Origin: Dongibacter bovis
GTDB lineage: Bacteria > Bacillota > Negativicutes > Selenomonadales > Selenomonadaceae
NCBI GenBank assembly: GCA_902763085.1
Contig: CACWQW010000013.1
Coordinates: forward strand, 1-64,000
Direction: 5' to 3'
DNA length: 64,000 bases
A program made the translations under genes and the position numbers. Shown one piece after another: positions 11,953 through 23,614 of this stretch. Each line of letters starts with the position of its first letter. Within the stretch, counting starts at the first letter, position 1. The notes beneath the pieces were generated by a model. The model was not told the DNA's origin and searched no databases. It was given only the letters and a program-made list of their open reading frames with translations.

Positions 11953-13884
11953 TTATGCCGCGACCTGCACTGCCTTCCGCCGCTTCCACTGGCTCAGCAG
12001 GACGACGGCGAAGAGCGCGAAACCCGCAAGGTCCGTCATCATGCCCGGCTTGATCATCATGAGGCCGCCGGCGATGAGCAGCAGGCGCTCGTAGGGGCGG
12101 CAGGTATCCGCCAGATAGCCGATGAGCGCGGAACTCAGGGCGACCATACCGATGATGGCGGTGATGGTCGTGAGGATGAGCGTCCCCGCCGTCGCGTCGA
12201 TCATGAGGATGACGGGCGAGAGCACGAACATGTACGGGATGATGAAGGCCGCGATCGCGAGTTTCGAGGCGTTGATGCCCGTGCGCAGGGCGTTGCCACC
12301 CGCGATGCCCGCACCGGCAAACGCCGCGAGCGCGACCGGCGGCGTGACATCGGCGATGATGCCGAAATAGAACACGAACATGTGCGCTGCGAGCACGGGC
12401 ACGCCCATCTGGATGATGGCCGGCGCCGCGATCGTCGAGGTGATGACGTAGTTCGCCGTCGTCGGCACGCCCATGCCGAGCACGATCGCCGTGATCATCG
12501 TGAAGAAGAGCGTCGGGAGCAGCAGGCCGCCCGAGAGCGTCAGCAGCCCGGACGCGAGCTTGAGCCCGACGCCCGTCTTCGTGACGACGCCGATGACGAT
12601 GCCCGCCGAGGCGCACGCCACGAGCACGGAGAGCACGTTGCGCGCGCCCTTGTCGAGGCCGCGCACGATCTCGACGGGCTTCATGCGCGTCGATTTCCGC
12701 AGCGCGGAGCAGACGATGGAGAGCACGATGGCGACGAGCGCCGCGCGCATCGGCGTGTAGCCTGAGACGAGCAGGTAGACGATGACGACGAGCGGCAGCG
12801 CGAGATGACCCCGCTCGAGGAAGAGACGGCTGAACTTCGGCAGCTGCTCGCGCGGCAGGCCCTTGAGGTTGTTGCGCTTCGCCTCGAAATGCACGCCGAG
12901 CCAGACGCCCGTGAAATAGAGCAGCGCCGGGATCACCGCCGCCTTGACGATATCGATGTAGGGGACGCCGACGAACTCCGCCATGAGGAACGCCGCCGCG
13001 CCCATGACGGGCGGCATGAGCTGGCCGCCCGTCGACGCCGCTGCCTCGACGGCGCCCGCGAAGTTCTTGTGGTAGCCGAGCTTCTTCATCATCGGGATCG
13101 TGAGCGAGCCCGTGCCGACGACGTTCGCCACGGAGCTGCCGGACACCGTGCCCATGAGGCCGGAGGAGAGCACGGCGACTTTCGCCGGGCCGCCGCTCGC
13201 CCAGCCCGCAATGCTGTTCGCGAGGTCGATGAAGAATTTTCCGAGCCCCGTCGACTCGAGGTAGGCGCCGAAGAGGATGAAGAGGAAGATGAACGTCGAC
13301 GAGACGCCGAGCGGAATGCCGAAGATGCCCTCCGTCGTGAAATAGAGATGGCTCACGAGCTGGCTGAGCGTGAGGCCGCGATGCGCGAGCACGCCGGGCA
13401 TGTAGGGGCCGGCGAACGCATAGGCGATGAAGCAGAGCACGACCGTCACCATCGGGATGCCGACGACGCGCCGCGTCGCCTCCACGACGAGCAGGATGCC
13501 GAGCAGACCGATGACGAGGTCCGGCGTCGTCACCGTCCCCGAGCGCAGCACGAGCTCCTTGTACTCCAGCACGATGTAGGCGGGCGACGCCGCGCCGAGG
13601 ATGGCGAGCACGACGTCGAGCGGATGTACGCGCGTGCGCGACCAGGACTTGCGCGACGGATAGAGCAGATAGACGAGCGCGAGGCCGAAGCCGAGATGCA
13701 CCGCGCGCTGCAGCTGCGCGTCGAGCACGCCGAACGTCGCCGTATAGAGCTGGAACACGGAGAACGTGATGGCGATGGCAGAGACGATCTTCGCCATGAT
13801 GCCTTTGTACTGCATGGTGTCAGCGTCGCTGTCGTATTTCTTGAGCACCTCCTCCGCAAGCTCTTTCTCTGATTTCTCACTCAT
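11953..13884 (-). CDS. TAXI-family TRAP transporter, fused DctQM permease
   Basis: Membrane permease of 643 residues in which the small (4-helix) and large (12-helix) TRAP subunits are fused, typical of the TAXI subclass. The N-terminal soluble region (MSEKSEKELAEEVLKKYDSD) is followed by about 16 hydrophobic helices and family-type segments such as SGSSVANVVGTGSLTIPMMKK and TGGQLMPPVMGAAAF. Ion-driven uptake of a carboxylate or amino acid is expected. The start is the ATG after GGAAAGG; a TTG six codons earlier is rejected. The DUF1850 gene and the TAXI binding protein lie upstream in the same operon. Confidence 0.93.
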   Translation of the reverse strand: MSEKSEKELAEEVLKKYDSDADTMQYKGIMAKIVSAIAITFSVFQLYTATFGVLDAQLQRAVHLGFGLALVYLLYPSRKSWSRTRVHPLDVVLAILGAASPAYIVLEYKELVLRSGTVTTPDLVIGLLGILLVVEATRRVVGIPMVTVVLCFIAYAFAGPYMPGVLAHRGLTLSQLVSHLYFTTEGIFGIPLGVSSTFIFLFILFGAYLESTGLGKFFIDLANSIAGWASGGPAKVAVLSSGLMGTVSGSSVANVVGTGSLTIPMMKKLGYHKNFAGAVEAAASTGGQLMPPVMGAAAFLMAEFVGVPYIDIVKAAVIPALLYFTGVWLGVHFEAKRNNLKGLPREQLPKFSRLFLERGHLALPLVVIVYLLVSGYTPMRAALVAIVLSIVCSALRKSTRMKPVEIVRGLDKGARNVLSVLVACASAGIVIGVVTKTGVGLKLASGLLTLSGGLLLPTLFFTMITAIVLGMGVPTTANYVITSTIAAPAIIQMGVPVLAAHMFVFYFGIIADVTPPVALAAFAGAGIAGGNALRTGINASKLAIAAFIIPYMFVLSPVILMIDATAGTLILTTITAIIGMVALSSALIGYLADTCRPYERLLLIAGGLMMIKPGMMTDLAGFALFAVVLLSQWKRRKAVQVAA

Positions 13885-13910
13885 ATAGAACATCCTTTCC
13901 AAAGGGAATT

Positions 13911-14429
13911 TCAGCGGAATACCTCATAGCCGGGCGCGACCAAAAGATCGATCTTCGTCCCCGGCGGGAACATCTCGTAGAGGCGCAGCGTCCCCGCCGA
14001 CGTGGTGAGCGTGAGCTGCGTGCCGACGCCCGTGCGCAGCGAGATCGTGCGGAAATGGCGGTCCATGTGGTCGAACACGAAGAAATCCCCCTCCTCGTGG
14101 AACTCGCCCTCGCTGAGCCAAAACGGCAGGCCGACGCCAAACGACTGATAACGCGTCGAACAGAGGCGCAGCTCTTTCTTCTGCCCATCCGCCACGAGGT
14201 TCTCGAGCACCGGCGTCTTCTGCACCGAATGCATGAACCAGATGGAGAACGGCTGCTCTTGGCGAAGCGGCAGCGCGGCGAGCGTCCGCCCGCCGCCGCG
14301 GATGAGGAATACCGGCTGCAGCAGCTCGAGGAAGATGAGCAAACAGCCGAGCGCGAGCACGCTGAAAACCTTGATTTTCTTCATGGAGAAAGGGCGGGCA
14401 AGCGCCCGCCCCTGCCTTCTTTCCTTCAC
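13911..14429 (-). CDS. DUF1850 protein of the TAXI transporter operon
   Basis: 172 residues from a GTG start, or 157 from the ATG 15 codons later. One membrane helix (KVFSVLALGCLLIFLELLQ) is followed by a soluble domain with FSIWFMHSVQKTPVLE, typical of DUF1850 proteins that accompany TAXI-TRAP systems. Function is unknown; a periplasmic accessory role is inferred from context. The start is ambiguous. The GTG directly follows the stop of the binding-protein gene (TAAGTG), whereas the ATG has no ribosome site and sits just after a perfect hairpin. GTG with translational coupling is preferred. Confidence 0.8.
   Translation of the reverse strand: MKERRQGRALARPFSMKKIKVFSVLALGCLLIFLELLQPVFLIRGGGRTLAALPLRQEQPFSIWFMHSVQKTPVLENLVADGQKKELRLCSTRYQSFGVGLPFWLSEGEFHEEGDFFVFDHMDRHFRTISLRTGVGTQLTLTTSAGTLRLYEMFPPGTKIDLLVAPGYEVFR
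14392..14411 (-). promoter_or_regulatory. Perfect 8-bp hairpin between the TAXI binding protein and DUF1850
   Basis: GGGCGGGC, GCTT, GCCCGCCC on the minus strand, followed by TTTCTCC. It lies inside the first codons of the DUF1850 frame if GTG is used. It could stabilise or partially terminate the upstream binding-protein mRNA, giving the usual excess of binding protein over permease. Confidence 0.6.
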
Positions 14430-15398
14430 TTATTTCTCTTCAAAGAACTTCTTCGCACCTGCGTTCATGTCAAGCGACATGCCCTTCTCAGCATTCTCCT
14501 TCGAGATGAGCTTGCCGACGGAATGCGCCGCCTGCAGGCGATCGAGGTTCGAGAAAATCGCCTTCGCAATCTCATAGCCGAGTTTGTCATCGACCTTGTC
14601 GTTCGCCACGAGCATCGACATGACGGAGATCGTCGGCACTTCCTCATTGAAGCCCGCATACGTGCCCGCAGGGATCGTTGTCTTCGTGTAGAACGGGTAC
14701 TTCGCGATCAGCGCGTCCGCCTTGTCGCCGTCGATCGGGAGCAGGCGGATCTTGTTCTGCGAGGAGATATCCTGCACGGAGGCCGTCGGATAGCCTGCCG
14801 TGAGGAATGCCGCATCGACGTTGCCGTCCTTGAGCGCGCTCGCGGCCTCGCCGAACGAGAGGTACTGCACGTCGATGTCATCGTAGGTGATGCCGTACGC
14901 CGCGAGGATCTGACGCGCATTCGCCTCCGCGCCGGAGCCTGCCGCGCCGACCGCGACACGCTTGCCCTTGAGGTCCGCGATCGTCTTGATGCCCGAGCTG
15001 TCGAGTGTCACGAACTGGCACGTCTCAGGATAGAGCGTCGCGATGCCCTTGAGGTTCGTCACCTTCTTGTCCTGGAACATCTCCGTGCCGTTCACAGCGT
15101 AGTAAGTGATATCGTTCTGCACGATCGCCATGTCGACGGAGCCGTCCTTGAGCATGTTGATGTTCGCGACCGTCGCCCCCGTGCTCTGCGCACTCGCGTT
15201 CATGCCCTCGATGTTGTTGTTGAGGATCTCCGCGATGGCGCCGCCGATGGGGTAATACGTCCCCGCCGTGCCGCCCGTGCCGATGTTGAGGAATTTCTTC
15301 TGGCTCGCCTGATCGCCGCCGCAGCCCGTAAGGAGCGCCGCCGAGACGACAACCGCCAGCCCTGCCGTCAAAATCTTTTTCATGGAACCGAACTTCAT
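14430..15398 (-). CDS. TAXI-family TRAP substrate-binding lipoprotein
   Basis: Periplasmic binding protein of 322 residues. The signal peptide ends in LLTGCGG, a clear lipobox, so the mature protein should be membrane-anchored. The family core is evident: LNIGTGGTAGTYYPIGGAIA at the start of the mature domain, and later LKGKRVAVGAAGSGAE and DAAFLTAGYP. The start ATG follows GGAGGG by about 7 bases; an internal Met five codons later is possible. It is first in the operon with DUF1850 and the fused permease. TAXI proteins with known ligands bind acidic amino acids or organic acids; glutamate here would fit the operator motif shared with gdhA, but that is inference. Confidence 0.95.
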   Translation of the reverse strand: MKFGSMKKILTAGLAVVVSAALLTGCGGDQASQKKFLNIGTGGTAGTYYPIGGAIAEILNNNIEGMNASAQSTGATVANINMLKDGSVDMAIVQNDITYYAVNGTEMFQDKKVTNLKGIATLYPETCQFVTLDSSGIKTIADLKGKRVAVGAAGSGAEANARQILAAYGITYDDIDVQYLSFGEAASALKDGNVDAAFLTAGYPTASVQDISSQNKIRLLPIDGDKADALIAKYPFYTKTTIPAGTYAGFNEEVPTISVMSMLVANDKVDDKLGYEIAKAIFSNLDRLQAAHSVGKLISKENAEKGMSLDMNAGAKKFFEEK

Positions 15399-15447
15399 GC
15401 AGATCCCTCCAAATCATTCATATAATTTCTTTATAAAATCTATGAAG

Positions 15448-15476
15448 ATTATAGCATAGGAGGTGTACACTCGCAA
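15448..15476 (-). promoter_or_regulatory. Promoter of the TAXI transporter operon, with GTGTACAC in the spacer
   Basis: TTGCGA, 17 bases, TATAAT on the minus strand. The spacer contains the perfect palindrome GTGTACAC (15463-15470), a position from which a bound repressor would block polymerase. Confidence 0.7.
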
Positions 15477-15515
15477 GAGATATTCTGGTAATTTCTTTGA
15501 TATTGTACAGTTATA

Positions 15516-15533
15516 TTGTATACATGCGTACAA
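15516..15533. promoter_or_regulatory. Operator-like palindrome upstream of the TAXI promoter
   Basis: TTGTATACATGCGTACAA is an 18-bp imperfect palindrome (14 of 18 positions symmetric). Its TGTATACATG core recurs upstream of gdhA. A TTGTACA half-site lies at 15503-15509. The spacing and symmetry resemble GntR-family operators; no regulator is identified. Confidence 0.5.
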
Positions 15534-22140: not shown

Positions 22141-23505
22141 TCACACGAGACCCTGTGCGAGCATGACCTCAGCGACCTTGCTGAACGCCGTGATGTTCGC
22201 GCCGGAGACGAGATCGTCCGGGTCTGCGTACTTCTCCGCGTTCTTCTTTGCGTTCTCGTAGATGTTCTTCATGATGCCCTGGAGCTTGCCATCGACTTCC
22301 TCAAACGTCCACTGCAGACGCTCGGAGTTCTGCGCCATCTCGAGCGCCGAGACGGCGACACCGCCGGCATTCGCTGCCTTCGCGGGAGCGAAGAGGACCT
22401 TGTGCTCCTGGAAATACGCGATCGCATCGAGCGTGGACGGCATGTTCGCGCCCTCGCCGACCGCCGTGACGCCGTTCGCGACGAGCGCCTTGGCGCTCTC
22501 GAGATCAATCTCGCCCTGCGTCGCGCACGGCAGCGCGACGTCGCACTTCACGGTCCAGACGCCCTTGCAGCCCTCATGGTACTCTGCCTTGGGATGCGTC
22601 TCGACATACTCCTTGATGCGGCCGCGGCGCACCTGCTTGATTTCCTTCACGGCGTCGAGGTCGATGCCGTCCGGATCGTAGACATAGCCGTTCGAGTCGG
22701 AGCAGGTCACGACCTTCGCGCCGAAGCTCTGCGCCTTCTCGATGGCGTACTGCGCGACGTTGCCCGCGCCGGAGACGACGAGCGTCTTGCCCGCAAGATC
22801 GATGCCCTTCGCGTCGAGCATGTTCTTCACGAAATACAGGAGGCCGTAGCCCGTCGCCTCCGTGCGCGCGAGCGAGCCCCAGCAGTCGACGCGCTTGCCC
22901 GTGAGGACGCCCGCGTCATAGCTGTCGCGGATGCGCTTGTACTGACCGAAGAGATAGCCGATCTCACGACCACCGACGCCGATATCCCCCGCGGGCACGT
23001 CGACGTCCGGGCCGATGTGGCGGTAGAGCTCCGTCATGAAGCTCTGGCAGAAATGCATGACCTCGTTGTCGGACTTGCCGTGCGGATCAAAGTCCGAGCC
23101 GCCCTTCGCGCCGCCGATGGGCAGGCCCGTGAGCGCGTTCTTGAACACCTGCTCGAACGCGAGGAATTTCAAAATATCGAGGTTGACGCTCGGATGGAAG
23201 CGCAGACCGCCCTTGTAGGGGCCGAGCGCGCTGCTCATCTGGACGCGGAACCCGCGGTTCACCTGGATTTCACCCTTGTCATCCTGCCAGGGGACGCGGA
23301 ACATGACGACGCGTTCCGGCTCGACCATGCGCTCGAGCAGCTTGTGCTGCTCGTAATTCGGATGCCGGTCGAGGACCGGTGCGACGGTCTTCAGGACTTC
23401 CGTGACAGTGTCTTTGAAATGCGTCTGTCCCGGGTCCTTCTTCGATACGAGATCCAACACGGACTGGATGTACTTTTTGCTGTCTGACAAGGTCAGGGAT
23501 GGCAC
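22141..23505 (-). CDS. gdhA: Glutamate dehydrogenase, hexameric 50-kDa type (NADP-type GdhA)
   Basis: Interconverts glutamate with 2-oxoglutarate and ammonia. The 454-residue length and an N-terminal extension (SDSKKYIQSVLDLVSKKDPG) match the bacterial/fungal NADP-dependent class. Active-site segments are GPYKGGLRFHPSVN, the catalytic-lysine region LPIGGAKGGSDFDP and the Rossmann loop VVSGAGNVAQYA. GTG is taken as start because an in-frame stop lies just upstream, but its ribosome site is poor. A well-placed AGGGATTGC-ATG 11 bases upstream is in another frame. It is monocistronic, with operator-like palindromes before the promoter. Confidence 0.95.
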   Translation of the reverse strand: MPSLTLSDSKKYIQSVLDLVSKKDPGQTHFKDTVTEVLKTVAPVLDRHPNYEQHKLLERMVEPERVVMFRVPWQDDKGEIQVNRGFRVQMSSALGPYKGGLRFHPSVNLDILKFLAFEQVFKNALTGLPIGGAKGGSDFDPHGKSDNEVMHFCQSFMTELYRHIGPDVDVPAGDIGVGGREIGYLFGQYKRIRDSYDAGVLTGKRVDCWGSLARTEATGYGLLYFVKNMLDAKGIDLAGKTLVVSGAGNVAQYAIEKAQSFGAKVVTCSDSNGYVYDPDGIDLDAVKEIKQVRRGRIKEYVETHPKAEYHEGCKGVWTVKCDVALPCATQGEIDLESAKALVANGVTAVGEGANMPSTLDAIAYFQEHKVLFAPAKAANAGGVAVSALEMAQNSERLQWTFEEVDGKLQGIMKNIYENAKKNAEKYADPDDLVSGANITAFSKVAEVMLAQGLV

Positions 23506-23545: not shown

Positions 23546-23614
23546 GTGTACGTTGTTACCAAGTTGAAGTATACTATATTCCACGGGAAATGTATACATG
23601 TATTTTTGTATACT
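23546..23614. promoter_or_regulatory. gdhA upstream region with repeated GTATAC/GTGTAC palindromes
   Basis: This 70-base stretch contains GTGTAC (23546), AGTATACT (23568-23575), ATGTATACAT (23590-23599) and TTGTATAC (23606-23613). The core TGTATACATG is identical to that upstream of the TAXI operon. The likely -10 boxes (TATAGT or TATACT) have no good -35 partner, which fits a promoter that depends on an activator bound here. Confidence 0.45.

Follow-up and report, generated by a model that had tools for sequence, protein, structure and literature searches.

A promoter element conserved at TAXI and gdhA genes suggests a wider amino-acid and nitrogen regulon in Selenomonadaceae

Regulators of the GntR/FCD type are mostly repressors, for which a site in the promoter of their own operon is common but not essential, and many of them share contact residues such as SRTPVREA. 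The Negativicutes, common bacteria of the rumen, the gut, and the oral cavity, live partly on amino acids and dicarboxylates. For Atu1419, a member of the GntR superfamily from Agrobacterium fabrum, binding to the operator ATGTATACAT has been reported, with Arg31, Glu34 (main chain), Ser44, Arg45, Thr46, and Arg49 as DNA contacts (PMC7797058). In this study, we analyzed a stretch of 64,000 nucleotides from Dongibacter bovis (GenBank assembly GCA_902763085.1, contig CACWQW010000013.1), referred to as the window, for which a sequence-only reading had suggested that one regulator, perhaps of the GntR family, governs uptake and catabolism of glutamate, based on operator-like palindromes upstream of a TAXI transporter gene and on a 10-mer recurring upstream of gdhA.

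The gene for the TAXI-family TRAP solute-binding protein (322 aa; NCBIfam TIGR02122, 363.7 bits) was located at 14430..15398 on the minus strand. Its predicted promoter, read from the sequence, covers 15448..15476 on the same strand and consists of a -35 box TTGCGA (15476-15471), a 17-bp spacer, and a -10 box TATAAT (15453-15448), with the stretch TATG.TATAAT being conserved among orthologues. As claimed before, the spacer harbors GTGTACAC (15463..15470, no strand assigned), a putative second copy of the TGTATACA-type element at TAXI; in relatives, this position about 16 bp upstream of the -10 box is occupied by TGTATA, TGTATAC, or TGTATACA. The upstream element, TGTATACA-ATATAAC-TGTACA (15504..15524, minus strand; core TGTATACA at 15517-15524), starts 71 bp upstream of the -10 box, and TTGTACGCATGTATACAA was found on the minus strand about 60-80 bp upstream of it. 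The previously described 18-bp palindrome, TTGTATACATGCGTACAA (15516..15533, no strand assigned), is present and also kept in the congener G049, but it is imperfect, with 7 of 9 pairs matching and an extra half-site TTGTACG upstream. The solved chains closest to the TAXI protein were 1us4 and 1us5, described as 'putative GluR0 ligand binding core', a likeness that suggests glutamate as a possible ligand. Just past the -10 box, at 15425-15447, the window carries a degenerate copy of a second TAXI element, and most TAXI relatives (e.g., L059, L068, and L073) keep roughly TATAATnnTATACRTgATAT there. A short gene-like stretch was also seen on the minus strand (13905-14429) between TAXI and the fused TRAP permease gene (11953-13902, TIGR02123), and some relatives have a similar one after TAXI.

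The gene gdhA (22141..23505, minus strand, GTG start assumed) codes for a glutamate dehydrogenase of 454 aa, which exceeded the cut-off of the NADP-specific model (NCBIfam NF006929, 746.5 bits versus 536 bits). Since enzymes of the NADP-specific type are usually assimilatory, the proposed role in glutamate catabolism is doubtful, and assimilation appears the likelier function. In the gdhA promoter, TGTATACA was found at 23591..23598 (no strand assigned) at a distance of 25 bp from the -10 box; the TATACA within it (23596-23591) is separated by 17 bp from the -10 box TATACT (23573-23568), and according to this reading it can serve as the -35 hexamer. Directly upstream of the 8-mer, two tandem near-repeats, AGTATACA and AAAATACA, were identified (23599..23614, minus strand), with a hand-counted distance of 41 bp between the start of the former and the -10 box.

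The 10-mer TGTATACATG occurred exactly twice in the window, at 15517-15526 in the TAXI promoter and at 23591-23600 in the gdhA promoter, whereas in 100 dinucleotide shuffles it averaged 0.01 copies and was not seen twice in any of them, so that both its restriction to these promoters and its rarity by chance were borne out. Throughout the draft genome (2.19 Mb), the 10-mer was found at four sites, compared with none for the reversed control, the other two being located upstream of a gene for a sodium:alanine symporter (AGCS; PF01235) and upstream of a gene for a 119-aa protein, for which searches against Pfam and NCBIfam resulted in no family match. In three congeners, the promoter of the gene for this 119-aa protein (L006 7084-7443; L112) carries the conserved element. 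The 8-bp core TGTATACA was counted 15 times in the own genome versus once for the reversed word, with 14 of these sites outside called genes and one within a HisZ-like open reading frame. Thus, the word does not occur mainly within genes or at many unrelated promoters; its sites in this genome are mostly intergenic, and their neighbors mostly belong to amino-acid or nitrogen metabolism. In G049, the core exceeded the reversed word less strongly (27 versus 12), and in G025 there was hardly any excess (17 versus 14).

Orthologues of gdhA and TAXI were detected in 49 (E<=1e-100) and 53 (E<=1e-40) of the 61 family genomes, respectively, and upstream regions of 300 bp each, 47 for gdhA and 50 for TAXI, were compared. 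TGTATACA was present in 33 of the 47 gdhA regions and 21 of the 50 TAXI regions and was the most frequent 8-mer in both sets alike, while first-order simulations gave a mean of about 0.3 and a maximum of 3 per set; kinship inflates these counts, though the matches are nevertheless spread over many genera. Among 43 genomes, the 8-mer was found at both genes in nine and at neither in five. In a set of named TAXI loci, 46 of 80 harbored it, including those of Selenomonas bovis, Mitsuokella multacida, Selenomonas ruminantium, and Anaerovibrio lipolyticus; the exact word was absent at TAXI of Mitsuokella sp. oral taxon 131 (L190) and at eight Selenomonas/Centipeda TAXI loci (L207, L209-L211, L213, L214, L220, and L221), which we take to be largely from oral species. 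Alignments of relatives showed that the conserved stretch extends beyond the 8-mer, reading TGTATACAnATAnACwTTACA at TAXI and TGTATACARTATT at gdhA. EM motif discovery recovered a GTATAC motif in the gdhA set, but in the TAXI set the promoter and its -10 region instead of the 8-mer; the conservation result rests on direct word counts, not on EM motifs. The spaced double motif GTATACNNRTATAC was considered as the full site and rejected, as it matched in 33 of the 61 genomes but its reversed control was also frequent. Altogether, this family-wide conservation lends good support to the claim that the TAXI and gdhA promoters have one regulator in common, and we regard such a regulator as very likely.

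Sites common to the own genome and G049 and/or G025 precede or adjoin several further genes of amino-acid and nitrogen metabolism, i.e., apart from TAXI and gdhA those for AGCS, amtB-glnK (PF00909, PF00543), an aminotransferase, ilvB, and ilvN (PF10369). Other genes sharing a site among these congeners encode pyruvate kinase, a 119-aa and a 147-aa orphan protein, a CofH/MqnC-like radical SAM protein, and DNA polymerase IV, of which pyruvate kinase, DNA polymerase IV, and the MqnC-like protein are exceptions to the amino-acid and nitrogen theme. In G049 and/or G025, sites were also located at a dicarboxylate symporter gene that diverges from ilvB and at genes for an aspartase-like lyase and a branched-chain amino-acid carrier; the own genome has a further one at a gene for an OPT peptide transporter. 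Upstream of the own amtB lies a gene for a PucR-family regulator (P0003; Pfam PucR, HTH_30), placed between an amino-acid permease gene and amtB-glnK (L099 4120-5304, contig C6); it was dropped as a general regulator, since G049 has a different gene there.

The long form TGTATACARTATTNC was found at 25 sites in 22 of the 61 family genomes, with no match for the reversed control. Based on neighbors read by ourselves, with Pfam searches on a sample, 18 of the 25 sites adjoin amino-acid or nitrogen genes, namely gdhA (five, one of which, L255, was assigned by likeness to L256), TAXI (four), amtB (three), ilvB (two), and genes for an aspartase-like lyase, glnA, an aminotransferase, and a dicarboxylate symporter; two others lie beside a gene for a bile-acid-type symporter and five elsewhere. 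The long form is oriented towards gdhA and TAXI, except in G036, and mostly away from amtB, ilvB, the lyase gene, and glnA. Class-wide, 87 of 380 genomes matched, and by hand tally from the table there were 96 matches versus 15 for the control among those listed; in family f2, the matches listed numbered 15 versus 3 and preceded genes for dicarboxylate symporters and DcuC-like carriers. Since the long form adjoins such varied genes, the predicted regulon is one of amino acids and nitrogen, not of glutamate alone. A regulator of glutamate, as proposed originally, is therefore too narrow a description for an element that precedes genes for ammonium, alanine-type, peptide, branched-chain, and dicarboxylate transporters as well as for an aspartase-like lyase, glutamine synthetase, an aminotransferase, and acetolactate synthase.

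The distance between the site and the -10 box gave hints on the direction of control. When -10 boxes were predicted independently of the site and each combination of genus and gene was represented by its median (n=30), distances of 25, 27, 42, 43, 49, 49, 51 (five), 52 (five), 53, 59, 60, 62 (four), 63, 68, 71, and 72 bp (four) were obtained, clustering at 51-53, 59-63, and 71-72 bp. The phase test, which dropped 9 of 57 site rows with distances outside 20-110 bp, mostly because the promoter was called upstream of the site, revealed a phasing of R=0.63 at 10.5 bp, with similar values from 9.5 to 11 bp. TAXI alone displayed distance classes of 48-53, 60-63, and 70-73 bp, also in the named set. 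The window's TAXI site at 71 bp is in phase, whereas its gdhA 8-mer at 25 bp is an exception overlapping the -35 box. Between genera, the site thus shifts in steps of full helical turns, which suggests that the polymerase is contacted and hence activation, and we consider it fairly probable that the regulator is an activator. A repressor-style operator would fit the spacer element, but the helical phase of the upstream element with the -10 box suits an activator better. At amtB and AGCS, the core is located farther upstream than a good -35 box, at a hand-counted distance of about 44 bp from the -10 box. At ilvB, it falls between the -35 and -10 boxes, and at ilvN it closely follows the -10 box. 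From these positions, uptake genes look activated and acetolactate synthase genes repressed.

For the regulator itself, the leading candidate would be a GntR protein with an FCD domain (GntR-FCD), an assignment that we make tentatively and with somewhat less than even confidence. A single strong protein of this type per genome was detected in 57 of the 61 family genomes and in 45 of the 46 high-quality ones; the candidate protein revealed a GntR winged-helix domain (PF00392, 69.7 bits, cut-off 27) and an FCD effector domain (PF07729, 115.8 bits, cut-off 24.3), and in G025 its gene adjoins, by eye, ispE-like and glmU-like genes. Using a phmmer match (offset 7), the DNA contacts of Atu1419 were mapped to Arg38, Glu41, Ser51, Arg52, Thr53, and Arg56, and all six were present in 47 of the 50 sequences examined out of the 57 found. 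The other three, all from genus g9, have Trp in place of the Arg31 equivalent, and their genomes lack the 8-mer at both genes; the remaining two of the five genomes lacking it at both are G040, in which no GntR-FCD was detected, and G017, which has a normal one. A Trp variant or no detected GntR-FCD was thus seen in 4 of these 5 genomes versus 2 of the 38 others, the latter two being incomplete assemblies without a detected GntR-FCD (Fisher p=0.0006, kinship ignored). Because the Trp variant is confined to one genus, it counts as one event. The gdhA promoters of g9 keep a variant, TGCATATTGTATTC, at 52 bp (hand count in G056), and the long form was absent from all 14 g9 genomes in the class survey; TGCATATTGTATTC also occurs at TAXI of G017 beside an unchanged GntR protein, which weakens the argument from covariation. 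In 30 GntR loci, no evident 8-mer was found at the operon, three pattern hits looking incidental. The earlier suggestion of a GntR regulator gains indirect support from this nearly family-wide protein with the Atu1419 contact residues and from the genomes lacking the 8-mer, but autoregulation was not seen. GntR proteins of the UTRA and MocR types were set aside; the gene of the UTRA one adjoins a glycoside-hydrolase-like gene.

The same regulon could alternatively be read by the single Lrp/AsnC-family protein of the genome, acting as an Lrp-like dual regulator of amino-acid genes, which we regard as unlikely although it ranks first among the alternatives. Exactly one AsnC-family gene was present in each of five genomes examined, it is well conserved and adjoins an aminotransferase gene, and the pattern of activated uptake and repressed ilv genes resembles that of Lrp. 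However, nothing structural links this Lrp to TGTATACA, known Lrp consensus sequences differ from the element, and the stretches read upstream of lrp genes revealed no 8-mer, although G053 has TTGTACACTTTACA just before lrp. In genus g1 (L322, L323, and L325), a T-box-like GGTGGTACCACGG followed by a terminator-like hairpin was noticed by eye before the lrp-aminotransferase genes.

Rather unlikely, too, and placed behind Lrp, is an activator of the CRP/FNR superfamily with an NtcA-like site (TGTA-N8-TACA, 16 bp). Several sites fit this pattern, e.g., the TAXI palindrome and that at amtB, class I activation typically involves phased upstream positions, and CRP proteins were found in five of five genomes; the AGCS and MqnC-like sites have CRP-family genes at distances of about 4 kb and 1 kb, respectively. 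On the other hand, the strict 14-mer GTATACNNRTATAC was only modestly above its control, stretches read upstream of CRP genes contained no 8-mer, and the recognition helices read by eye, the own C3 copy not being among them, did not look like the known NtcA type, because of which we ranked the CRP family below GntR-FCD.

It is very improbable that the words are simply promoter parts kept by sigma-factor constraints, i.e., TATACA as a -35 box and AGTATACT as a -10 box. The spacing of the two hexamers in the window's gdhA promoter is in line with this, as is the fact that 11 of 30 regions share the AGTATACT of the gdhA -10 box, but in TAXI and most gdhA relatives TGTATACA lies farther upstream than the -35 box, at 51-72 bp from the -10 box, and conservation extends well beyond the 8-mer. 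Least probable of all is the originally proposed local GntR repressor of TAXI and gdhA only. It would fit the 10-mer shared by both genes and the nine genomes with the 8-mer at both, but speaking against it is an element that is kept within the genus at amtB-glnK, AGCS, ilv, aminotransferase, and other genes, and whose extended form marks amtB, glnA, ilvB, and others family-wide.

Inferring binding, direction of control, ligand, and regulator identity from the computed sites, conservation, phasing, neighbors, and contact-residue match, we propose that one conserved regulator acting at TGTATACA would control uptake of amino acids, ammonium, and C4-dicarboxylates together with nitrogen metabolism in Selenomonadaceae, with TAXI and gdhA as two members of a regulon that probably extends to other Negativicutes. 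From the helically phased main site at TAXI, the protein would most likely activate from the DNA face occupied by RNA polymerase, while the weaker spacer copy GTGTACAC, when occupied, could lower or tune this promoter. The same protein probably represses ilvB and ilvN, since the site there overlaps the promoter or lies just past the -10 box. It would most likely be the only strong GntR protein of the FCD type, whose gene adjoins the ispE-like gene; the SRTPVR helix of this protein would recognize TGTA half-sites, and its FCD domain would sense a small carboxylate. As a whole, i.e., one conserved regulator at TGTATACA, phased activation, ilv repression, and GntR-FCD as its most likely identity, we judge this proposal to be, by a little, more probable than not. 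More speculative, and in our view rather doubtful, is that an ancient single-copy GntR of the FCD type, normally a local repressor type, became a global nitrogen and amino-acid regulator in Negativicutes, activating uptake and assimilation and repressing acetolactate synthase, with the contact arginine and the sites changing together in one genus. Among the literature matches listed, including those on Negativicutes, Selenomonas gdh, TAXI, and amtB, no described regulon with this word was found; if true, the regulon would offer a compact, testable set of genes for nitrogen control in Negativicutes, together with one candidate for its regulator.

Compared to known systems, GlnR and TnrA of Bacilli, with the site TGTNAN7TNACA, are similar in their nitrogen-assimilation scope, but this site does not fit the sequences found here. 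Regulators of the Lrp/CodY type resemble our findings with respect to transporters, ilv genes, and aminotransferases as well as activating and repressing site positions, but differ in their DNA word. NtcA-type regulators of the CRP/FNR superfamily share the scope of ammonium transporter, glutamine synthetase, and glutamate dehydrogenase and the TGTA...TACA half-sites, whereas here conservation is stronger for the 8-bp core than for the 16-bp form and the CRP helices read do not look NtcA-like. Likeness to Atu1419 comprises the core TGTATACA within its operator ATGTATACAT (PMC7797058), an identical residue at every reported DNA-contact position in GntR-FCD of Selenomonadaceae, and paired, spaced operators that might be bridged. 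Atu1419 is described there as repressing hydroxycinnamate genes locally, from operators separated by 190 bp (PMC7797058), whereas the sites in Selenomonadaceae, at distances phased with the promoter, would make up a wide amino-acid regulon, for which an activator appears likelier.
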